This document shows, piece after piece, positions 27,499-40,398 of a stretch of DNA of 64,000 nucleotides. Within the stretch, counting starts at the first letter, position 1, and every line of letters starts with the position of its first letter. This DNA is from Nostoc edaphicum CCNP1411 (GTDB taxonomy: Bacteria; Cyanobacteriota; Cyanobacteriia; Cyanobacteriales; Nostocaceae). Made by a program: the position numbers and the translations under genes. The stretch is from contig NZ_CP054698.1 in NCBI RefSeq assembly GCF_014023275.1, positions 2,728,001 through 2,792,000 on the forward strand. Reading direction: 5' to 3'. Under the pieces are notes generated by a model. That model saw only the letters and a program-made list of their open reading frames with translations, ran no database searches and had not been told where the DNA came from.

Positions 27499-28554
27499 AT
27501 GACCATCGCAGTTGGACGCGCCCCCAGTAGAGGGTGGTTTGACGTTCTAGACGACTGGCTCAAGCGCGATCGCTTCGTATTCGTAGGTTGGTCAGGGATA
27601 CTATTGTTCCCCTGCGCCTTCCTAGCACTAGGCGGTTGGCTGACCGGCACAACCTTCGTCACCTCTTGGTATACCCACGGGTTAGCCTCCTCTTACCTAG
27701 AAGGTGCTAACTTCCTGACAGTGGCAGTATCCACCCCCGCCGACAGCATGGGACATTCCCTATTGCTGTTGTGGGGGCCAGAAGCCCAAGGCAACCTCAC
27801 CCGTTGGTTTCAATTGGGTGGTTTGTGGCCATTCGTAGCTCTGCACGGAGCCTTTGGTTTGATTGGCTTCATGTTGCGGCAATTTGAAATTGCCCGTCTG
27901 GTAGGTATCCGTCCTTATAACGCCCTCGCTTTCTCTGCTCCCATTGCAGTATTCGTCAGCGTATTTCTGATGTACCCCTTGGGACAATCTAGCTGGTTCT
28001 TTGCACCCAGCTTTGGCGTCGCGGCAATTTTCCGATTCCTACTATTCTTGCAAGGCTTCCACAACTGGACACTCAACCCCTTCCACATGATGGGCGTTGC
28101 GGGTGTATTGGGTGGTGCTCTATTGTGCGCCATTCACGGTGCCACAGTGGAAAACACCTTGTTTGAAGACGGTGATGGTGCTAACACCTTCCGCGCCTTC
28201 AATCCTACCCAGTCTGAAGAAACCTACTCAATGGTGACAGCAAACCGTTTCTGGTCACAGATTTTCGGTATTGCTTTCTCTAACAAACGCTGGTTGCACT
28301 TCTTCATGTTGTTCGTACCAGTTACAGGCTTATGGATGAGCGCCGTCGGTATCGTCGGTTTAGCACTCAACCTGCGGGCTTATGATTTCGTCTCCCAAGA
28401 ATTACGGGCGGCGGAAGACCCTGAGTTTGAAACCTTCTATACCAAAAACATTTTGCTGAATGAGGGTATCCGCGCTTGGATGGCTCCTCAAGATCAACCC
28501 CACGAACAATTTGTATTCCCTGAGGAGGTATTACCACGTGGTAACGCTCTCTAA
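27499..28554 (+). CDS. psbD: Photosystem II D2 protein
   Basis: D2 subunit of the photosystem II reaction centre in the thylakoid membrane; it binds P680 chlorophyll, pheophytin, QA and, with D1, the non-haem iron. The 351-aa sequence starts [20 protein letters not shown] and carries five membrane helices. Ligand-bearing segments include [20 protein letters not shown] and [20 protein letters not shown]. The C-terminus [20 protein letters not shown] is typical. The last 17 bp overlap psbC in another frame, a conserved psbDC arrangement. Confidence 0.99.
28521..28540 (+). promoter_or_regulatory. Ribosome binding site and GTG start of psbC inside psbD
   Basis: GAGGAGG lies within the psbD coding sequence ~9 nt upstream of the GTG at 28538, which decides the psbC start as MVTLSNRP. 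The upstream in-frame ATG at 28460 would add 26 non-conserved residues. Confidence 0.85.
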
Positions 28555-29929
28555 TAGACCAAATATATTAGGCGGCACTGGACGCGACCAAGAATCTACT
28601 GGCTTTGCCTGGTGGTCTGGTAACGCGCGTTTAATCAATCTATCTGGCAAACTACTGGGTGCTCACGTTGCCCACGCTGGTTTGATTGTATTCTGGGCTG
28701 GAGCGATGACTTTGTTTGAAGTCGCTCACTTCATTCCCGAAAAACCCATGTACGAACAGGGCTTGATCCTGTTACCTCACCTTGCTACCCAGGGCTGGGG
28801 TGTTGGTGCTGGTGGTGAAGTCATCGACACCTTCCCCTACTTTGTTGTTGGTGTACTCCACCTAATTTCCTCAGCCGTCCTTGGCTTTGGCGGTATTTAT
28901 CATGCTGTCCGTGGCCCAGAAACCTTAGAAGAATACTCTTCTTTCTTTGGTTACGACTGGAAAGACAAGAACAAGATGACCAACATCATCGGCTTCCACC
29001 TGATTATTTTAGGATGCGGTGCGTTGCTGTTGGTGCTGAAGGCAATGTTCTTTGGTGGTTTGTATGACACTTGGGCACCAGGCGGTGGTGACGTTCGTGT
29101 TATTACTAATCCGACATTGAACCCAGCGGTTATCTTCGGTTATGTAATCAAGTCTCCCTTTGGTGGCGAAGGCTGGATTGTCAGCGTTGATAACTTGGAA
29201 GATGTCGTCGGTGGTCACATTTGGATTGCCTTTATCCTAATTGCTGGCGGTATCTGGCACATCTTCACTAAGCCTTTTGCTTGGTCACGTCGTGCATCCA
29301 TCTGGTCTGGTGAGGCTTATCTCTCCTACAGCTTGGGCGCTCTGTCGTTGATGGGCTTCATTGCCTCAATCTATGTTTGGTTTAACAACACCGTTTACCC
29401 CAGCGAATTCTACGGCCCTACTGGGCCAGAAGCTTCTCAAGCTCAAGCTTTGACCTTCTTGATTCGTGACCAACGCTTGGGTGCTAACGTCGGTTCTGCC
29501 CAAGGCCCTACAGGTCTGGGTAAATACCTGATGCGCTCTCCAACTGGTGAAATCATCTTCGGTGGTGAAACCATGCGCTTCTGGGATTTCCGTGGCCCTT
29601 GGTTGGAGCCTCTACGTGGCCCCAATGGTCTTGATTTGGAAAAAATCAAGAATGATATTCAACCTTGGCAAGCTCGTCGCGCCGCTGAATACATGACCCA
29701 CGCTCCTTTGGGTTCTCTGAACTCCGTAGGTGGTGTGGCTACTGAAATTAACTCCTTCAACTACGTATCTCCTCGCGCTTGGTTGGCGACTTCTCACTTC
29801 GTACTAGGATTCTTCTTCCTAGTTGGTCACTTGTGGCACGCTGGACGCGCACGGGCTGCGGCTGGTGGTTTTGAGAAAGGAATTAACCGTGAGACTGAGC
29901 CAGTGATGTTCATGGACGACCTAGATTAG
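28538..29929 (+). CDS. psbC: Photosystem II CP43 chlorophyll-binding protein
   Basis: Inner antenna protein of photosystem II with six membrane helices and a large lumenal loop. It starts at GTG ([13 protein letters not shown]) after a strong internal Shine-Dalgarno site and overlaps psbD by 17 bp. Landmarks are [20 protein letters not shown], the loop segment with [17 protein letters not shown], and [20 protein letters not shown], whose GGETMRFW includes the Glu and Arg near the Mn cluster. The C-terminus ends MFMDDLD. 463 aa, full length. Confidence 0.99.
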
Positions 29930-30921: not shown

Positions 30922-31758
30922 TTAGCTTCCTCCCACATTCATTGCTGTTAAAAAAGCCTTCTGGCTCACATCTCTATAAACTGTATTCAAATACTTCATT
31001 ACCACATCACTCGAAGTCGAATTTACTACATTTTCCTCTTCCTTCGCTAGGGGAATTGCTCCTAATACATCTAATACCATCTCATTAGTAGACGGCGCAA
31101 TCACTACTAATGATGACTCTAGTGGCTCATTGTATTGCCAGAAAGAATCAATTTTTACGGAGTATTTGTTATTAGGAATTGACTGTTGAATTTCGGGCGT
31201 TTCTATGGTATTGGGCTGAATCTTGGCATTACGTAATTGACGTAAATCGCTGATAATTTGCTCTTTGGTGCGTCCGCGCAATTGAAATAGTACAAAAGGG
31301 TCTTCACTGAAGCGATCGCCTAACTGATAGTACAGTGCACCAATGTGTTTACAGGGATTTGCCTTATCAGGACAAGAGCATTTACTCTGGACATCACCAA
31401 GAGTAAAAGGGAATATCGAAAGACCATTAGCCGTAAAGACTTCTTCTATATTTTGTGGCATTTCTCCTGCTAGTAATTTTGCGGCAAAAATTGCCCTTTG
31501 GGACATGGTTTCAATTACATAACCCCATTGTTCATCAGTAAATGGTTCAAGGGAAAGGGAAACTTTATAAGGTTCAACTTCACTACCTTGCACCCTAGCT
31601 AATACTTTTGCACCTTTAAATTCAATGCTCAAAACATTTCCTTGACGAGCATAATTTCTCGCACGTTCTAAACGCTTTTTAAAGCGATAGGAATCTAGCA
31701 AATCTAGCCATTGTTGTGACCACCATTCTCGACTTGCTTGTAATGTGTAATTAGTCAT
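30922..31758 (-). CDS. SWIM zinc finger protein
   Basis: A 278-aa protein with the SWIM motif SKCSCPDKANPCKHIGALYY (CxC...CxH zinc ligands) near residues 125-145. In many bacteria such a protein is encoded next to an SNF2-family helicase and thought to act with it on DNA. Here the SNF2 gene is on the same strand but ~5.3 kb upstream, separated by the caspase/NB-ARC block. The first ~110 residues (WWSQQWLDLLDSYRFKKRLE...) match the conserved lead-in of these partners. Confidence 0.88.
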   Translation of the reverse strand: MTNYTLQASREWWSQQWLDLLDSYRFKKRLERARNYARQGNVLSIEFKGAKVLARVQGSEVEPYKVSLSLEPFTDEQWGYVIETMSQRAIFAAKLLAGEMPQNIEEVFTANGLSIFPFTLGDVQSKCSCPDKANPCKHIGALYYQLGDRFSEDPFVLFQLRGRTKEQIISDLRQLRNAKIQPNTIETPEIQQSIPNNKYSVKIDSFWQYNEPLESSLVVIAPSTNEMVLDVLGAIPLAKEEENVVNSTSSDVVMKYLNTVYRDVSQKAFLTAMNVGGS

Positions 31759-31934: not shown

Positions 31935-33269
31935 TTATTCTATCCCCGTCTTACGCCGCAACCACTCAACCAATTGGCGCGAAAAATCCAAGTTCTTATC
32001 GCGCAAGCGCTCTCGGATTTCCAGCGCAGTCAGTGCTAAGGGTAGTGCCTCTGTATAGCGCCCCTCCTCCTTCAAAACTCGTGCTAACCCCTCTTGAGCA
32101 TCAGCGACCAAACTTTGCTGTCCTATTTCCTGCGCCAGGGTTAACTGACGCTCGTACCAGGTACGGGCTTCTGTAGGGCGGTTGCGGTTAAGGGCGAGAT
32201 GTCCTAAACCAGCAGAATGAGAAGCTTCTTGTTCTTTAAAACCCAGCTTTTTAGTGATCGTCAATGCTTGCTTGTAGTAAAATTCGGCGCCATCGTAGTC
32301 TCCCTGCGAGCGTGCAAATCCTCCCAAATTGTTGAGGGCGATGTACAACTGCTCCGCTTCCGCCCAGTCCTGGCGTTGCTCTGCAATCACTCCTTGCATA
32401 CGGGTTGCAAAAGCCTTGTCCCGAAGGTTGCCGCCCCGTTCCATCATCTCCTTCATTTGATCTCCCGAACTTGCTGTTCGATCTTTGTCCGCACGTTGGT
32501 AGTGAATCCAGGCAACATGATATGCACCCCAACCAGCATCGCTCCACTGACTCAGTGCCTTTCCTGCCAGATATCGCCACTCAGCCAAGCGTACCCACTC
32601 ATCCCAGTAGCCTCGAAACCGGAGGAAGCTAGACAAAGCGTGTTCCAAATCGATGAGCATTTGGGCAGCTTGTTGGTCTTTCAGCGTACCGGGGATACCT
32701 GCCATCTCCCACAAGGTTGTCGCCACGCCTTCTAGATTCTGCCACTCGGCTTCCAGCTTGTCATGGGTCTGATAGGCATCTTTGCCCTCACCCCCGTACT
32801 TCTGGGCAAAGTCTACCCAGTAGCGCAGAACTTTGCGTTGGGCGGCAGAGTCAAACCGAATTCCACTTAGGGGTGCAGTCCCAACAGTATCCGTTCCGTC
32901 CACAGCTGCCAGGATATATGTGCGAGTGAGGGGGTGCAGGCCAAACCGTTCTCCATCCAAATCATTCACCAAAGATAGAGTTACCAGCCGTTCTAAAGAA
33001 ACTTGAATCTCAGTGATGGCTAAATCCGTAGCATCTGCCAATGCTGCGGTTTTTGCTGGTGTCAGGAATACAACCAGGGCACACAACACTGTGCGATCAT
33101 TTCCAGAGAGAGTTTCGGCGGCATCGGCAAACAGAAACCCGTAGAGATCGGGAGATTTGGCGGCATTCCGCAATCGCTCTAGGGCAACACTGATAGAGTA
33201 GCCTTTGTGTGCCACCTGTCCTAATGTCCAATCTAGCGCTAGGGGATTGCCACCAGAAGCTTCATATAA
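31935..33269 (-). pseudogene. NB-ARC/TPR (STAND) ATPase, C-terminal part, separated by IS insertion
   Basis: This continues the 34665-35496 gene on the far side of an insertion element. It begins in frame with LYEASGGNPLALDWTLGQ, the last NB-ARC helix (the SGGNPLAL motif). A winged-helix-like region follows (TAALADATDLAITEIQVSLE... FGLHPLTRTYIL), then a TPR-type helical array to the end (GGFARSQGDYDGAEFYYKQA, RPTEARTWYERQLTLAQEIG, GRYTEALPLALTALEIRERL). Without the insertion the full protein would be about 720 residues. The frame shows no other lesion, so the damage looks recent. As a free piece it could only be translated from an internal GTG at 33215. Confidence 0.82.
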
Positions 33270-34664
33270 CCCTGTTTTGTCACTCTAGGCAGAGGAAAAG
33301 TAGAAATCAGGGTGAGACAGGAAAATAAATATTGAACTGGTGAGGTTATAAATAATAGATTGAAGTTTCGAAAAACCCAAAGACAATTGGGGAATAGGAA
33401 AAACTGTCAACCAGGGATATATTAGGTTAAATAAAGTAAAAGGTTGAATTATTAAACGGAGATTGTTAAGAATGTTCTTCCAACCCTTCCCATCATCCCA
33501 CCAAGGATGAGCAGCCAATTTTGATGGAGACTTTGGTGGAGAAGACTGCATTTGTTCAGAGTGTAGACTCACCATTAAGTAGCTACTACAAACAATCTCC
33601 CACCAGCGTTCAATATCCGCATAATGAGTCAGCCGATAATCTGCCCAACCTAATTCATTCTTACTTTGCTTCAAGCCATATTCAACCCAAGTTCTTAACC
33701 CATAAAAGTTACCAACATCTCTTGGTGTAAGGTCTGCGTATTTACTCATCACATACCAAGTAGTGTTACCGGGTAATTTCTCAATGTCAGTAGTAATCTG
33801 CCAATACCTTTTTTTCTTGTCGTTTACCATGAATTATTTCCCTAATAAACCGATTCTCACTACTCAAGTTAGAGAATACTCTTTTAAACTTATGCCACTT
33901 TAAATATTGAGTATGTTGTCTAGGAAGTAGCTCTACAGAATGGTTTGAGCGAATCGCCACTAGATAATTTAACCCCAGATCGTCTAATATAGATATGAAA
34001 TTAGCACTACTCTCACCATATAAGCTATCTGCTAGTACTAGGTTGAATTTAAAACCCATCAACTCTAGCTTTTTTCATCATTATTGCTGCTATTTGAGGC
34101 TTCGTAAGATATTTATCCCCCTGGCTTTAATCTTTCGCGTGGCTTGTATACTTCAAACAGTAATGGAAAAGTCATCCCACAGAATACACCATACGCCGTG
34201 ACTGCTACAATTCCATTTTCTACTTTACCCAAATTACCTATGTACTGTCGTTTCACATAATCTGTCTTATTCCCTTTCTTTTTTATCTCCTGTCTCATCA
34301 ATAATTAGAATGATTGGTCTACCTTTTAGAACTTGTAAAATTAGCTCTAATCGCAAGGCTCTTAACTTCTCTATATCCCAAGGTGATGTAGTTAAAAAAA
34401 ATGGTGCAAACCCTGCTGATTGTCCAATCCTACAATTTTTGCTATTTCTGGTAGGGTTTTCCGTTTTAGTTCAGAAATACACCCTACATGAAGGTATTTA
34501 AAAGCCTCGAAGCTCCTAACATCTGGAAACAGGCTTTTATACCATTGGCAATATTCGTCCACGAATTTTACTGTTGGTGCGGCTGGACGAGGCTGTACCA
34601 TACTCTGTGTCTTGGTTCTAGCGTTTGTACCTTATTATACTACTGCCAGAGTGACAAAACAGGG
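33270..34664 (-). mobile_element. IS701-family-like insertion sequence (1395 bp)
   Basis: The boundaries are perfect 17-bp terminal inverted repeats (CCCTGTTTTGTCACTCT at 33270-33286 and its complement at 34648-34664). A 4-bp target duplication ATAA flanks it (33266-33269 and 34665-34668). Removing the element and one ATAA restores the NB-ARC reading frame exactly (ALYEASGG). The size, 4-bp duplication and transposase type fit IS701. The transposase gene is frameshifted, so the copy is probably not autonomous. Confidence 0.92.
33285..34601 (-). pseudogene. Frameshifted IS701-type DDE transposase
   Basis: The transposase is present end to end but split over several frames. From the 5' end the pieces are VDEYCQWYKSLFPDVRSFEA; IILIIDETGDKK (first catalytic Asp) with TDYVKRQYIGNLGKVENGIV; FNLVLADSLYGES (second Asp); and YGLRTWVEYGLKQSKNELGW (catalytic Glu). 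At least two frame changes, and probably more, are needed to read through, near 34390-34300, 34115-34060 and 33830-33790. Confidence 0.88.
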
Positions 34665-35496
34665 ATAAAGCGGTCAATATCTCCGGCTTTATGGCGTTTA
34701 GTTCCTGGGCTAGACGGGGGTGCGATCTTCCCTTCTCTCTCATTAATTCCAAAGCTTCTGCCTCTAAGAGACGATCTAAGCGGATGGTGACGGCGCTTTC
34801 CCCAGTGCGGCGGCGGCTGGTGATGATCGCTTTGTTGGGGGTGGGCAGTTTCCGCAAAAACTCGGCAATCATATCGCGTTCTTCTGAATTCAAGGTTTCC
34901 AAGTTGTCCCAAATCAACAGGGTGCGCCGTCCCCGCAGGGCATCGAGAAGGGCGCGGCGGCGTTCTGTGGCATCATTCATTTTCACAATATCTGTTTGTC
35001 CCAACCTCTTGGAAAATTCCCGGCAGAAGCTATCGAGAGAAGACAGGGCCAGGGTTTCTTCCCGCACTCCCTCTGTAGAGAGCCTGGTAGTCTTGGCAGA
35101 AACAAACAGGTAGGCATCAAACAAGGCTTGCTCACGGGCTAAATGTGCTACCTCCAGCGCTAACGCCGTTTTGCCCATACCACCAATACCATCGATCGTC
35201 ACACCCCAACCGCGCTCCTCTGGTGAAAGTGCTTCCAAACAACGGGCAATTTCTTGTTTGCGTCCCACAAACACATCGTTATAGCGGGGCAGGTTATCGG
35301 GCAAATTTTCTGAGCGCTTTCCCTGTAATTGGCTTAATCGCGCCTCTAAGCTAGTGACTTCTTTTTGTTTTTCTTCTAGTTCGATTTGCAAATCTACTGG
35401 AACTCGAATCCCATAGCTAGCTTTTTCCTCCTCTATTATCTGGAGGGCGCGACGAGCGCGGTTAAGAGTTCGCTGTAATGCTTCTTGATTATCCAT
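34665..35496 (-). pseudogene. NB-ARC (STAND) ATPase, N-terminal part with adaptor-like domain
   Basis: Residues ~10-55 form a short helical module (ALQIIEEEKASYGIRVPVDL then QIELEEKQKEV) nearly identical in pattern to the C-terminus of the adjacent caspase. Residues ~70-275 are an NB-ARC ATPase: VFVGRKQEIARCLEAL, Walker A IDGIGGMGKTALALEV, Walker B RTLLIWDNLET and sensor KAIITSRRR. The coding sequence then runs into the insertion element, adding a short foreign tail (SLFCHSGSSIIRYKR) before a stop. The intact gene would encode adaptor-NB-ARC-TPR, the architecture of STAND sensors in programmed cell death and anti-phage defence. Confidence 0.85.
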
Positions 35497-35544
35497 AAGG
35501 TTATATAAAAATAAATCTAATATTAATACGCTGCAAACTATGGA

Positions 35545-35623
35545 GATCCCCCTAAATCCCCCTTAAAAAGGGGGACTTTAAGAAACTCTCTTGCCCCACT
35601 TTTTAAGGGGGGTTGGGGGGATC
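35545..35623. repeat. Palindromic GATCCCCC-type repeat
   Basis: The ends are GATCCCCCTAAATCCCCC and the mirror GGGGGGTTGGGGGGATC, with a second inner pair (CTTAAAAAGGGGGA / GCCCCACTTTTTAAGG). A common cyanobacterial interspersed repeat able to form a long hairpin. Confidence 0.6.
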
Positions 35624-35664
35624 AAAAGCCTGTGGGGTAACTTTAGTCTTTCACAGTATCTCCC

Positions 35665-35842
35665 AGAACTCGGCGATTCGTGTTCGGAACTCGGCGATTC
35701 GTGTTCAGAACTCGGCGATTCGTGTTCAGAACTCGGCGATTCGTGTTCGGAACTCGGCAGTTCGTGTTCAGAACTCGGCAGTTCGTGTTCGGAACTCGGC
35801 AGTTTGTGTTCAGAACTCGGAAGTTCGTGTTCGGAACTCGGA
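35665..35842. repeat. 21-bp tandem repeat, 8 full units plus a partial one
   Basis: Consecutive units of the pattern RGAACTCGG-CGA/CAG-TTCGTGTTC, with no spacers. One sub-family carries CGGCGATTCG and the other CGGCAGTTCG. All frames stay open because the unit is a multiple of three (minus strand: SSEHELP/SSEHESP heptads). It lies between the caspase gene and the NB-ARC gene. Confidence 0.85.
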
Positions 35843-35872
35843 ATGAGAAAAATCATCGTCGGATATATTTGC

Positions 35873-36895
35873 TTAATCCAATCCTGTTCTTTGATGCCGG
35901 GACTCTAATTCAGTTACCTGGCGACGTTTCTCTTCTAATTCAATCTGCAAATCCACTGGAATACGAATGCCAAAAGAAGCAGCTTGTTCTTCTAAAATTG
36001 CTAAGGCTCGTTTTGCTCTTGCTAATGCAGGTGTTACCACTTGTTGATCAGTCATAATTTGCAAATCTGGGATTGTGGTTGAGCTTGGTAGTCCCTTCCC
36101 TCCCCGCAGCATGGCAATAGGAAAATCTTCCATCGCCGTATCAAAAAACGGAGTCTGTTCAGCCTGACGTTGGGTTCTGGCGCTCTCTGGAACGGTTTTA
36201 CCCAAATGATTCATCAGATTTGAGAGCATAACTTTGGAATCGCCTGGTTGATTAGCCGCTCCCCGCAATGCCTCAATTAGATGATAAGTATAGAGACTCA
36301 TGGTTCCATCAGGACGTATCCAAGAAACCTGATTGCCTCTGGAGGATGTAAACACCGCCCGTCCTTCGCCCTGCTTCAAGGCATCGACTACGCCCTTGGG
36401 CAATGCCGTAGCGATAAAATCAGCAGGTAGTTCGCCTTTAGAAGTAGCCATACCCTCTGCATGACAACTATCAATTACCACCCACAACCGCTTTGCTTGA
36501 ATCTGCCGCAAAGCTTGAGTAAATTCTTGGGCAGATAGGGCGGTATTAGCAATGTCTGTGGAATTGAAGTCATGTTGCAGCAAATAATAACACTGACTTG
36601 ATAAGTCAAAGCACCCATGACCAGAGTAAAAAACTACAATTGTTGCATCGCGATCGGCAGCAGCCTTTTCCTTTAACCACGTTAATCCATCCAAAATTGC
36701 GCTGCGTGTTGTCTGTTGATTCTGCAATAAACGAATATGTTCGGAATCATCCACATAGGCACACAAGTTTGGATCGGTTAGCACTGTTTTCAAGGCTTGC
36801 ACATCTTTAACTGTGACAGGCAATGAATATTGAGATTCGGCTGTTCTGCCAACCCCAATTAACAACGCATAACCGTGGGCAAAGTGATTCGACAT
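35873..36895 (-). CDS. Caspase-family (C14) protease with C-terminal adaptor-like domain
   Basis: A metacaspase-type cysteine protease. The N-terminal ~230 residues are the p20-like fold: AHGYALLIGVG opens it, the catalytic histidine is in VVFYSGHG and the catalytic cysteine in LWVVIDSCHAEG. The last ~60 residues (PALARAKRALAILEEQAASF, then GIRIPVDLQIELEEKRRQV) form a small helical module that also starts the neighbouring NB-ARC protein, so the two probably dock. The start MSNHFAHGY is preferred; an in-frame ATG 39 bp upstream adds non-conserved residues. 340 aa. Likely role is an effector protease for cell death or defence. Substrate is unknown. Confidence 0.88.
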   Translation of the reverse strand: MSNHFAHGYALLIGVGRTAESQYSLPVTVKDVQALKTVLTDPNLCAYVDDSEHIRLLQNQQTTRSAILDGLTWLKEKAAADRDATIVVFYSGHGCFDLSSQCYYLLQHDFNSTDIANTALSAQEFTQALRQIQAKRLWVVIDSCHAEGMATSKGELPADFIATALPKGVVDALKQGEGRAVFTSSRGNQVSWIRPDGTMSLYTYHLIEALRGAANQPGDSKVMLSNLMNHLGKTVPESARTQRQAEQTPFFDTAMEDFPIAMLRGGKGLPSSTTIPDLQIMTDQQVVTPALARAKRALAILEEQAASFGIRIPVDLQIELEEKRRQVTELESRHQRTGLD

Positions 36896-37107: not shown

Positions 37108-40100
37108 TTATTCTGTATCATCGTCAATTACTGCACTGCGATCTAGTATTAGTAAGTTGCGGAGTTGATCTGTATCTAGTTCTGTCAACCATTCTTCACC
37201 AGCACCTACAACTTGTTCAGCTAGCTGTTTCTTACTTTCAATCATGTCATGAATTTTTTCTTCTAAAGTACCTGTGCAAACAAATTTATGTACTTGCACA
37301 TTCCGGGTTTGACCAATCCGAAATACTCTATCTGTGGCTTGATTTTCCACAGCTGGGTTCCACCATCTATCAAAGTGGAATACATGATTTGCTCGTGTTA
37401 AATTCAGTCCGACTCCACCCGCTTTCAGAGAAAGAATCATAATTGGTGGCCCTTGAGGATCGTGTTGGAAACGGTCAATCATTTCCTCACGTTGTTTTTT
37501 GCTGGTGCTGCCATATAAAAAGAATATTTCTCGCCCTAGCTGTTTTTCTAAATAGGGTTTAAGTAACTTACCCCACTCAGCAAATTGTGTAAAGATTAAG
37601 GCGCGATCGCCTTCTGCTAAAACTTCTTCTAACATTTCTTCTAGCCGCAGAAGTTTGGCTGAATTATGTTGTTCTAATGTGGCTTGTTTCAAATATTGTG
37701 CTGGGTGATTGCAGATTTGTTTGAGTTTGATTAGTAAAGCTAAAATCATCCCCCGCCGTTGCAATCCTTCAGCAGAGTCTATCTCTACTAAAGATTGTTC
37801 TACAATTTGTTGATAAAGTGCAGCTTGTTCACCAGTTAAACCGCAAAATACGGTCATTTCTTGCTTATCTGGTAAGTCTTGAATGATGTCGCGATCGCTT
37901 TTTAATCGCCGTAGTATAAATGGTTGTACTAATGAACGTAACTGAGTCAAAGAGGCAGTATCACCATACTTTTCAATTGGCATGGCAAACCGACGCTGGA
38001 AAAATTGCTTATTGCCTAAATAGCCAGGATTGAGAAAATCCAAAATAGACCAGAGTTCTTGCAGCCTATTTTCTACAGGTGTCCCCGTCAACGCAATCCG
38101 AAATGTCGCTTCTAATTCCCGCACTGCTTTTGACTGCTTCGCGTCTGGGTTTTTCACATTTTGGGCTTCATCTAAAACAATTATCTGCCAAGAGACACTT
38201 TGCAATGATTTGATATCTCGATGAAGCAGTGAGTAGCTGGTAACGATTAAATCGTGCTTTTTCACTGCTTCTAAAAACGCTTTCCCTTTAGGGCGTTTAT
38301 CACCGTGATATTGCAAAATTTTCAGGCTTGGTGCAAATTTATTAACTTCCCTTTCCCAGTTGCCTAAAACAGAAGTTGGACAAACTAATAGTGTTGGATT
38401 TTCTAGTGCATCTTGTTCTTTGAGATGTAGCAAAAAAGCAATGAACTGCACGGTTTTACCGAGTCCCATATCGTCGGCGAGACATGCACCCAAACCCCAA
38501 CGTTCTAAGAAGGACAGCCAAGCCGCACCACGTTCTTGATAAGGCCGCAACTGTCCTTTAAAGGCTGCTGGTGTGGGTAAAGGTGCGATCGCTTGATTAT
38601 TGCTTAACGCCCCAATCAACTCTTGCAACGCCCCAGATGCCTCAAAGCTGACGACTGGTAATTTTTCTATTACCTGGGTATCTCCTGTACTAAAACGCAA
38701 GGCATCTTCCAAGGAAAGGGCCATTTGATCTTTGCGAGTGGTAAAAAATGTTTGGGCTGTTTTGATATCTTGGGGGCGCAATTCTACCCACTCGCCGTTA
38801 ATTTCTACTAGCGGACTATTTAAAGCTACAAGTTTATCAAACTCAGCTTTAGAAATAGTCTGTCCGCCAATTGCCAATTGCCATTGGAAATTTAGTAAAC
38901 TCTGCAACCCTAAACGTCCCTGCTTTCCTTTTGGGGTTTCGGCAGTAATTTTCAAACCCAAACGGTTCGCCCATCCTTCACGGTTTGCCAAACTGGGAGG
39001 CAAAATTACTCCCAAACCACTGTCTTCCAGCCTCCAAGCTACAGCTTTGATAAACTCATAAGCTTGAATGGGGGTGAGACGAGAAGATTGGGGATATTCG
39101 GTTTCAAAGCTGGGTGCGATCGCTGGATATAATCGGGAAGCTACCCCCAAACCTCGCAAAAATGTTTCTTGTGGTTGCTCAATTGTCCGATTTTCATAAA
39201 CCAATCGTTCAACCGGATTGTTCCAAATAGTTGCCGCATCCACCAAAAACTCAGGATCGTCAGCCGCTTGTAGGAAATATGCTAATGTCCAATCTGTTTC
39301 GCCAAACTCTGGAGAACGCAGTTGAAAACAGGTACGAAATAGAGTTTTAAGAGTTAATTGGTATTGTAGCGGCATAGTCCAAGCCTTCAGTGCCGCTTCC
39401 AGTCGTTCTATTTCAATGGCATCTGCATTGACTGTGCCAGATGTACTAGTTAAGCCTTGCAACCACTGTCGCACCCCAGCTGGTAAAGATGCGTAGGCGT
39501 TGCCCGTCGTAGACATCGCCTTAGCTTCAATTGGAGGTTGAGAACCTACCATTTCTCGCACTTGGGCATCTATCGTACTGTTTAGAAATCCCAAAAGTAA
39601 TTCTTGAGGTTCGGCTGGGAAGTTTATATAGATTGGGCATTGGGCATGGGGCATGGGGCATGGGGCATTAGTTATTAATTCTTCTCCACCCAGTCCCTCT
39701 TGATAAGTACGACAAACCAACGGCATATTCGCAGAATATTTTTCTAGGCGGGTTCCATCTACAGCACTATCTAGAAGTACTCGCCACTTAGCAGCAAATG
39801 CACCATCTGATTGTCGGTTAATTGCTGGTAAAAACTTACACCGTGAGATTAAATCTAAACTCCAGCGGGCAACCTGCGACCAAAAGCGTAAATCTCCACC
39901 TAAAAAGGCATCTTCCCCTTTAGCAGCATTTAAAGGAACAGCAGCGAGAAATTTTATTGCTTCGCTGGGGTTGAGACGAAAACCCTCAACTCGCCACGGT
40001 TGTAAATATTGTGGTGAATCTGTATTTTCCCCCAAGCTGGCAGAATGTACAGGGAAAATCGCTGTTGTTCCTTTATCACTTCCTTCTGGGATATAAGTTG

Positions 40101-40398
40101 GTAAGGCAATGATTTGGGAGTGCGTTGGTAAACTTATCTCAGGGGCACTGGCGGCTTTGCGGGTTCGCCCAGTAGTTGCGATGGCTACTTGGGGTTTTTG
40201 AATGAAGTTAGTAATTGCCATGTTCTGCGATCGCAACCACTCACTCAACTCAACCGATGTCATTGCCAATGGATGTAGTGCTATATCTCCAGATCCACTA
40301 GACTCGAAATTCACTCGTGGCGATCGCCAAGTTTCCCCCCAAATAAATAAACTACTATTTTTATTTTTTAGTAACCAATTACAGTGTAAAATCACCAT
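37108..40398 (-). CDS. SNF2-family helicase (DEAD/DEAH box, SNF2_N plus helicase_C)
   Basis: 1096 aa. The N-terminal half is the SNF2-associated region typical of bacterial members. The C-terminal ~480 residues are the motor: Walker A DDMGLGKTVQFI, Walker B VLDEAQNVKN, motif III ALTGTPVENR and motif VI QATDRVFRIGQTRNVQVHKF. It would translocate on double-stranded DNA and remodel protein-DNA complexes. The start MVILHCNWLLKN...LFIWGETW is family-typical. Around residues 243-256 a heptameric DNA repeat is translated in frame (NAPCPMPHAQCPIY). A SWIM partner gene lies downstream after the caspase block. Confidence 0.93.
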   Translation of the reverse strand: MVILHCNWLLKNKNSSLFIWGETWRSPRVNFESSGSGDIALHPLAMTSVELSEWLRSQNMAITNFIQKPQVAIATTGRTRKAASAPEISLPTHSQIIALPTYIPEGSDKGTTAIFPVHSASLGENTDSPQYLQPWRVEGFRLNPSEAIKFLAAVPLNAAKGEDAFLGGDLRFWSQVARWSLDLISRCKFLPAINRQSDGAFAAKWRVLLDSAVDGTRLEKYSANMPLVCRTYQEGLGGEELITNAPCPMPHAQCPIYINFPAEPQELLLGFLNSTIDAQVREMVGSQPPIEAKAMSTTGNAYASLPAGVRQWLQGLTSTSGTVNADAIEIERLEAALKAWTMPLQYQLTLKTLFRTCFQLRSPEFGETDWTLAYFLQAADDPEFLVDAATIWNNPVERLVYENRTIEQPQETFLRGLGVASRLYPAIAPSFETEYPQSSRLTPIQAYEFIKAVAWRLEDSGLGVILPPSLANREGWANRLGLKITAETPKGKQGRLGLQSLLNFQWQLAIGGQTISKAEFDKLVALNSPLVEINGEWVELRPQDIKTAQTFFTTRKDQMALSLEDALRFSTGDTQVIEKLPVVSFEASGALQELIGALSNNQAIAPLPTPAAFKGQLRPYQERGAAWLSFLERWGLGACLADDMGLGKTVQFIAFLLHLKEQDALENPTLLVCPTSVLGNWEREVNKFAPSLKILQYHGDKRPKGKAFLEAVKKHDLIVTSYSLLHRDIKSLQSVSWQIIVLDEAQNVKNPDAKQSKAVRELEATFRIALTGTPVENRLQELWSILDFLNPGYLGNKQFFQRRFAMPIEKYGDTASLTQLRSLVQPFILRRLKSDRDIIQDLPDKQEMTVFCGLTGEQAALYQQIVEQSLVEIDSAEGLQRRGMILALLIKLKQICNHPAQYLKQATLEQHNSAKLLRLEEMLEEVLAEGDRALIFTQFAEWGKLLKPYLEKQLGREIFFLYGSTSKKQREEMIDRFQHDPQGPPIMILSLKAGGVGLNLTRANHVFHFDRWWNPAVENQATDRVFRIGQTRNVQVHKFVCTGTLEEKIHDMIESKKQLAEQVVGAGEEWLTELDTDQLRNLLILDRSAVIDDDTE
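39488..39520. repeat. Palindromic interspersed repeat within the SNF2 gene
   Basis: A GATGCGTAGGCGTTGCCC...ACATCGCC-type sequence, related to the 11903-11938 repeat inside fmt. Translated in frame. Confidence 0.45.
39632..39669. repeat. Heptameric short tandem repeat inside the SNF2 gene
   Basis: TGGGGCA-type heptads (five units) in coding DNA. The same unit occurs between genes at 25971-26002 and in degenerate form near 3543-3560. Confidence 0.75.

Follow-up and report, generated by a model that had tools for sequence, protein, structure and literature searches.

We have analysed a window of 64,000 nucleotides from Nostoc edaphicum CCNP1411 (NZ_CP054698.1, 2,728,001–2,792,000; all positions below are window positions), which belongs to a genome of 8.3 Mb. 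Here a gene for a caspase-like protease is followed by a gene for a STAND ATPase with NB-ARC and TPR regions, and the two products carry the same small adaptor module, at the C-terminus of the first and the N-terminus of the second. Related loci and the genomes surveyed are labelled with L- and G-numbers. The pair and its borders consist of the following features.

37108..40398, reverse strand: SNF2 helicase, bordering the slot of the pair on one side
35873..36895, reverse strand: caspase-like protease, 340 aa from its ATG, with Peptidase_C14 at residues 8–253
35897..36055, reverse strand: adaptor hairpin of type A at the caspase C-terminus, residues 281–333
35497..35872, reverse strand: caspase–STAND intergenic stretch of 376 bp, with 8.5 copies of a 21-bp tandem repeat
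34665..35496, reverse strand: N-terminal part of the STAND ATPase gene (adaptor, linker, NB-ARC), 277 codons ahead of the insertion
35338..35496, reverse strand: adaptor hairpin of type A at the STAND N-terminus, residues 1–53, its fold modelled on the relative L017
33270..34664, reverse strand: insertion sequence splitting the STAND gene, 1,395 bp, with 16-bp inverted ends and a TTAT target duplication
31935..33269, reverse strand: C-terminal part of the STAND gene (remaining ATPase module, then TPR repeats)
30922..31758, reverse strand: SWIM zinc-finger gene, the other border of the slot

The caspase (36895..35873) matches PF00656 with an E-value of 2.4e-20, and its His93 (SGHG) and Cys144 (DSCHAEG) are invariant in all 17 aligned sequences, the window's included. 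That is, it counts as a caspase by a Peptidase C14 catalytic domain with both the His and the Cys. For the STAND gene, NB-ARC is matched in the frame 35496..34618 (E 1.4e-8) and TPR in the frame 33215..31935 (best E 1.9e-15), and the P-loop GIGGxGKT is retained in 21 of 21 sequences. An NB-ARC domain with P-loop and C-terminal repeats, as expected of a STAND NTPase, stands in one protein in the unsplit relative L017 and is split in the window. A first-pass annotation of this DNA had already named the caspase and NB-ARC/TPR pair. Its domains are indeed found (PF00656, NB-ARC, TPR), but it took both STAND pieces for a single gene and missed the insertion sequence at 34664..33270.

The homology between the caspase C-terminus and the STAND N-terminus, also claimed there, holds well. 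Caspase residues 281–333 align without gaps to STAND residues 1–53, with 32 of 53 positions identical and 44 of 53 positive (E 7e-18). A search of the genome against itself gives two adaptor copies at significant E-values (2.5e-31 and 2.5e-15), and the next hit has an E-value of 0.945 at 32% identity. As 18 of the 32 shared residues (54 aligned codons) are encoded differently, the two adaptors of the window are not a fresh copy of each other. In the six type A caspase pairs that were counted, 18–19 shared residues have different codons; this argues against a fresh duplication of the module for the counted caspase pairs, but not for pairs with a TIR effector (see below), where 32–46 of 54 codons are identical in the four pairs counted.

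AlphaFold2 predicts a two-helix hairpin for both modules. In the caspase model the helices span residues 283–307 and 314–338, with a predicted local distance difference test score (pLDDT) of 56–82 in ten-residue blocks; in the STAND model, which is that of L017, they span residues 4–27 and 34–57, with blocks at 71–90. The caspase model resembles metacaspases and MALT1, and the L017 model resembles the STAND-TPR protein 6mfv and TPR arrays. In a Pfam scan of 11 diverse adaptor copies up to E 10, six families were hit by one copy each (best E 0.059). No effector-associated domain (EAD) family was matched by these 11 sequences at that threshold; the Pfam library contains EAD1 and EAD8, and others were not checked by name. 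In addition, hhalign of the adaptor profile against just two EAD1 sequences gave a probability of 0.1. These two comparisons give no support for membership of the module in a named EAD.

In this strain the pair is interrupted. The 1,395-bp insertion sequence, with inverted ends CCCTGTTTTGTCACTC, breaks the open frame of the STAND gene. Its frame picks up again past the insertion (LYEASGGNPLALDWTLG), and in unsplit relatives the STAND protein is continuous across the window's insertion point. The genome holds eight copies of the insertion sequence (1,389–1,395 bp), each with a 4-bp duplication; among the eight, only the L008 copy has an unbroken transposase frame of 446 codons, and the window copy is broken. 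With its STAND gene split, the system is probably no longer functional in this strain, and since there is also no third adaptor copy in the genome at a significant E-value, the caspase is probably left without a partner. It is thus quite probable that the window holds a decaying leftover without function in this genome. This concerns the window's strain only and is compatible with a working pair in the relatives. The insertion within the STAND gene and the presence of just two significant adaptor copies argue for a leftover, whereas the caspase frame is still open with its catalytic residues conserved.

Breakage is seen at other loci as well. Among the relatives with both genes inside a contig, together with the window, 6 of 27 loci are broken (L026, L029, L031, and L038 are omitted from this sample, L086 is the same contig as L024, and G099 is the only one of the further order-search loci that was graded). 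Insertion sequences broke the window and G099, the STAND was lost in L034 and L087, a frameshift broke the TIR gene of L021, and stops broke the caspase of L024. Several of the loci come from draft assemblies or metagenome bins, and the damage in L021, L024, and L034 might therefore be a sequencing error. In G099 (L162 3414–8542) it is the caspase that is split, by a transposase-like gene, and its neighbour is a different protein, of AAA_16-TPR architecture, with the same kind of adaptor.

We have scanned 84,980 species genomes with the N-terminal half of the STAND and obtained 28 loci, 26 of which are close cyanobacterial relatives (L042 and L043 are distant). A module-bearing gene lies beside the STAND in 24 of these 26, the module being placed at the C-terminus of the caspase or at the N-terminus of a TIR protein. 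The two exceptions are L026, which starts at a contig end, and L031, which has no adaptor partner within 20.8 kb. In an order-wide search of 388 genomes with the adaptor alignment, the module was found in 16, of which 15 have at least two copies. At the phylum level, an even draw of 386 genomes contains it in 3 when queried with a single sequence; the alignment as query gives 4, including a doubtful one. Two matches were not taken for systems, a weak one in G342 (E 0.0018, internal stop) and another in G707 (two stops). Overall, alignments across these loci place the same ~55-residue module on an effector and on the N-terminus of the adjacent gene product, mostly a STAND ATPase with C-terminal TPRs, so the recurrence of the domain pair in other genomes, a check named in the first-pass annotation, is clear.

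The diversity of partners that had been predicted is also found, with the module on caspase, TIR, and nucleoside phosphorylase proteins. In the TIR partners the C-x-x-E motif (NCMYE) is kept in all eight; its Glu we take to be the NADase residue. The third effector, a nucleoside phosphorylase (PF01048) with a C-terminal module, occurs in G619, G536, G528, G614, and G501, and in each of these five genomes its gene directly adjoins another adaptor gene. An ATPase partner of a second kind, in which TPRs follow AAA_16, is found in G099, G619, G528, and G614. The partner in G501 is a TPR protein with no ATPase match at E 1e-5 (in both G501 and G656, TPRs are seen and no ATPase model is among the matches listed), and that in G536 is a 121-aa frame close to the contig end. 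In G528 (L196 3901–9033) three adaptors stand in a row, on the phosphorylase, on a 123-aa protein without Pfam match, and on the AAA_16-TPR protein. Two further variants have been observed. In Fischerella PCC 9431 (L031 10001–12481), a second adaptor-STAND has another ATPase region (residues 492–708) in place of the usual C-terminus. A plasmid protein of Candidatus Chlorohelix (Chloroflexota; L051 6001–6888) carries the adaptor ahead of a membrane helix; a further stretch of it looks vWA-like by eye only, and no vWA family is among its Pfam matches.

The STAND adaptors fall into two types, A and B. Residues 1–50 are 86–89% alike within A and 79–86% within B, but only 32–46% between A and B, and the remainder of the protein has no such split. 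Labels were given locus by locus, with the adaptor tree as a subsequent check. In all 27 typable pairs of a caspase or TIR protein with a STAND of the window's kind, the types of the two partners match (12 caspase A/A, 8 TIR A/A, and 7 caspase B/B); the count includes L034, with 33 residues of its STAND adaptor, and excludes L021 (frameshifted TIR adaptor), L026, L031, and the further order-search loci.

A paired replacement can be seen directly in DNA. Between the window and L033, identity is 96% in the caspase body, 67% in the caspase adaptor, 55% in the STAND adaptor, and 95% in the NB-ARC region. In the spacer 355 of 376 positions are gapped, and the edges of the trough are sharp, near 36,100 and 35,340. 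The same-type control, the window against L019, gives 96%, 97%, 91%, and 94% in the same order, without any trough.

In most Nostoc loci the pair sits between the SNF2 helicase and SWIM genes. The SWIM gene is present in 124 of the 126 genomes of the family, and the slot was read in 100 of them. In 75 it is empty, with SNF2 and SWIM side by side and a gap below 600 bp (median 102). Five slots hold effector and STAND at least in part, namely those of the window, G418 (stops in the caspase), G445 (a STAND of 80 residues), and G338 and G406 (TIR), and three more hold a relic. A longer gap is found in 13, with other genes in the nine inspected, and SNF2 was not seen in the remaining four. In L084 (7059–9001) and L085 (6763–9001) the slot holds the same two similar genes, which are unrelated to the pair, so it accepts other cargo too. 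On a tree of the SNF2 gene, built by a quick method from 39 hand-chosen loci, there are at least 9 switches between occupied and empty slots and, among the 21 occupied ones, at least 5 between caspase and TIR.

Caspase and TIR replace each other in this slot beside similar STANDs. Comparing L019 (caspase) with L022 (TIR), the match of 89% extends through SNF2 and resumes, at 93%, 23 bp before the STAND ATG; in two comparisons of a caspase/TIR exchange within type A, the match restarts 22–23 bp before the STAND start. On the tree of STAND bodies (24 rows; L026, L029, L031, L034, L038, L087, and G099 are omitted because they have no effector, are cut or shortened, or belong to another kind, and the window row is its first 277 codons only), at least 8 changes of effector class and at least 5 of adaptor type are required. 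Grouping all TIR loci is rejected (p 8e-86), and so is grouping all type B loci (p 3e-72). The tree has seven two-row forks with good support, and in four of them (L019/L022, L018/L032, L033/window, and L030/L041) the two rows are unlike in effector or adaptor type. The tree of caspase bodies (17 rows) requires at least 4 changes of adaptor type and rejects a type B clade (p 0.0014). Comparisons of the loci thus show that effectors have been exchanged at one chromosomal slot with the STAND retained, and that adaptor types change jointly in both partners.

This history bears on the question of whether the pair might be a developmental or stress switch of filamentous cyanobacteria instead of an immune system. 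According to PMC3501461, metacaspases are most prevalent in filamentous, differentiating strains. A switch would also suit the scarcity on mobile elements: the STAND adaptor had no match in phage records, none of the 133 stretches of viral contigs that fit a pattern in the adaptor alignment search was confirmed, and among plasmids the adaptor was found on one only (that of Chloroflexota) and the TIR partner on none. On the other hand, a developmental switch should be steadier than what we have observed, i.e., patchy occupancy of the slot with its at least nine changes on the SNF2 tree, repeated exchange of the effector, and breakage in 6 of 27 loci. We therefore regard this alternative as unlikely.

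Which parts of the adaptor distinguish the types has been examined by columns. Between A and B, 13 columns switch in both partners, most of them at the loop and the start of helix 2; in these, same-type partners agree in 9 (A) and 5 (B) columns, versus 2 and 2 for different-type partners. Furthermore, identity of cognate partners was compared with that of mismatched ones in 15 author-chosen pairs, with G501 (divergent partner adaptor), G619b, G707, and near copies omitted, and with the 123-aa middle protein of G528 used in place of its large TPR protein. Over all columns the identity is 0.56 for cognate against 0.48 for mismatched partners (reached in 0 of 20,000 shuffles), and over the loop and helix 2 start (columns 27–43) 0.61 against 0.46 (also 0 of 20,000); the end of helix 2 gives 0.67 against 0.64 (1,371 of 20,000). 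When each lineage is represented by a single pair (11 in all), the counts are 9 of 20,000 for all columns and 6 of 20,000 for the loop. Since the blocks were chosen post hoc and related pairs are not independent, these figures are not strict probabilities. G414 has a third form of the loop motif, PPELLIQLEDK, in both partners.

Several results weigh against specific recognition between the partners, or against the wider proposal of a defence cassette. The adaptors cluster mainly by carrier gene on the adaptor tree: the caspase A adaptor is 68% like caspase B and 59% like its own STAND, and the caspase B adaptor is 68% like caspase A and 48% like STAND B. Co-change of the same columns in both partners is not significant (Fisher p 0.14). 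Helix 1 shows a cognate excess as well (0.47 against 0.42, 103 of 20,000 shuffles), and without type A (11 pairs) the excess is small, with 557 of 20,000 for all columns, 293 of 20,000 for the loop, and none for helix 1. The cognate partner is the best match in just 5 of 15 rows, or 7 of 15 in the loop, and the column blocks were set after the partner-column comparison had been seen. In addition, 11 of 21 inner branches of the STAND-body tree are unresolved, the caspase model is of low confidence overall (pLDDT 64.6), and PADLOC reports no full defence system for the pair, which gives only single-gene caspase, TPR, and TIR/SEFIR-type matches. The SNF2 helicase (37108–40398) is scored by the PADLOC helicase models ZorD (469 bits) and DpdE (452 bits); since SNF2 adjoins SWIM without the pair in 75 of 100 slots, these scores probably reflect generic helicase similarity.

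As the two adaptors are adjacent, a single recombination tract can swap both, and matched types need not mean selection. Matching might accordingly be nothing but hitchhiking or gene conversion within one short tract. The four TIR pairs with 32–46 identical codons look as they would after recent duplication or conversion; in TIR pairs 45–50 of 54 residues are identical between the partner adaptors, and the TIR adaptors, unlike those of the caspases, are nearest to their own STAND (84%). The codon differences in the six type A caspase pairs speak against such a history, as does the third form of the loop motif shared by both partners in G414, and we consider it somewhat unlikely. We infer that matched adaptors have been selected for, with one recombination tract explaining their joint replacement mechanically.

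Another alternative is that the hairpins are only a shared oligomerisation piece, by which each protein assembles with itself and the partners never bind each other. Two-helix hairpins are able to self-associate, the adaptors cluster by carrier gene, and a profile search of solved structures (PDB) with the adaptor gave only weak matches, with nothing below E 0.34 and a coiled-coil protein as the best. Self-assembly alone leaves without explanation the 27 matched pairs out of 27, the paired replacement, the cognate excess at the loop, and the fact that one fused effector has given way to another without a change in the type of the STAND adaptor. We thus hold it to be very unlikely.

In our preferred reading, effector and sensor form a two-gene cassette and are coupled through an adaptor of the EAD type; to this reading, with its proposed steps of sensing, recruitment, and killing, we give a probability of about 75%. 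The TPR end would sense an invader or a danger ligand, upon which the NB-ARC ATPase would exchange nucleotide and oligomerise. The clustered adaptor hairpins would then recruit effectors by hairpin–hairpin contact, with specificity presumably in the loop and helix 2 start, and crowding would activate the caspase, TIR NADase, or phosphorylase, so that the infected cell may be killed or arrested. Most simply, the sequences can be read as an NLR-like pair of bacteria whose killing arm is recruited through contact of the hairpins, and they suggest a plug-in cell-death system; hairpin binding, immunity, and cell death are the putative elements of it. More tentatively, and possible rather than probable, the hairpins may act as an exchangeable lock and key, in which A, B, and a third form in G414 are mutually exclusive codes in the loop and helix 2 start. 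Pairs would then evolve in place at one slot, by swapping the whole effector within a code or by jointly swapping both adaptor ends between codes.

The coupling principle itself is known. According to Kaur et al. 2020 and 2021 (PMC7159879, PMC8195603), EADs couple effectors including caspase, TIR, and PNPase, and the coupling is proposed from domain architecture and neighbourhood. As in the EADs of MoxR-vWA, iSTAND, and GTPase systems described there, we find a small non-enzymatic terminal domain that both a core NTPase and the effectors carry; its second copy lies on the neighbouring gene in 24 of the 26 close relatives and in further order-search loci. Unlike those EADs, the adaptor has no Pfam match and is ~55 residues long, versus 90 (EAD1) and 96 (EAD8) model positions; the core here, one of two genes in the set, is a STAND of NB-ARC-TPR or AAA_16-TPR architecture, and the neighbours in the window are SNF2 and SWIM genes. 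The adaptor reading of the first-pass annotation, with its range of partners, is thus borne out in the relatives, but homotypic binding is a putative part of it, the pair is interrupted here, and the principle had already been published. Its observation is partly confirmed, and its interpretation is partly supported.

Other known systems are similar in part. The CARD-NLR systems (the Lysobacter gasdermin system and Caulobacter LypABC), according to PMC13236601, also link a protease and a TPR-ATPase by helical domains, and for LypABC the protease–ATPase contact via N-terminal helical domains was detected by two-hybrid. Those systems have a trypsin-like protease with a CARD and a third gene, whereas we find a two-helix hairpin with caspase, TIR, or phosphorylase, and a third adaptor-bearing gene only in G528. 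Membership in the CARD-NLR systems was rejected on the hairpin models and the caspase, TIR, and phosphorylase effectors, no structural comparison with CARDs having been made. PMC10907252 discusses EAD8, which occurs on a STAND as well as on a trypsin encoded nearby, and also names Avs and further bacterial NLRs. The latter are similar in being STAND ATPases with C-terminal repeats as putative sensor; the effector of Avs is fused to the STAND, whereas here it is a separate gene. The caspase domain also aligns with the EACC1-associated caspases (NF047832) at 97.4 bits, under the model cut-off of 140 bits; its neighbours are STAND, SNF2, and SWIM genes, in contrast to EACC1 systems, though no search aimed at EACC1 was made.

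The module and its pairing are real. In the open-access literature covered, we have not found a description of the hairpin family, the slot, or the paired, matched replacement; supplements and most subscription journals were outside this scope, and these may be described elsewhere. Near-identical caspase and NB-ARC bodies with two matched adaptor pairs, and similar STANDs beside a caspase or a TIR protein, are natural chimeras, which allow a direct test of homotypic binding and its specificity. They also suggest a way in which an NLR-like sensor of bacteria can exchange one killing arm for another at the same site.

Finally, the 21-bp tandem repeat between the two genes lies at 35664–35841. 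A 37-base pattern taken from it, with up to 3 mismatches allowed, has its sole genome match at these positions, and the relic slot of G396 (L100) contains a repeat frame that looks similar. Genes at 27499–29929 are presumably psbD/psbC-like, and stretches orthologous to this region flank the same slot in many Nostoc records.

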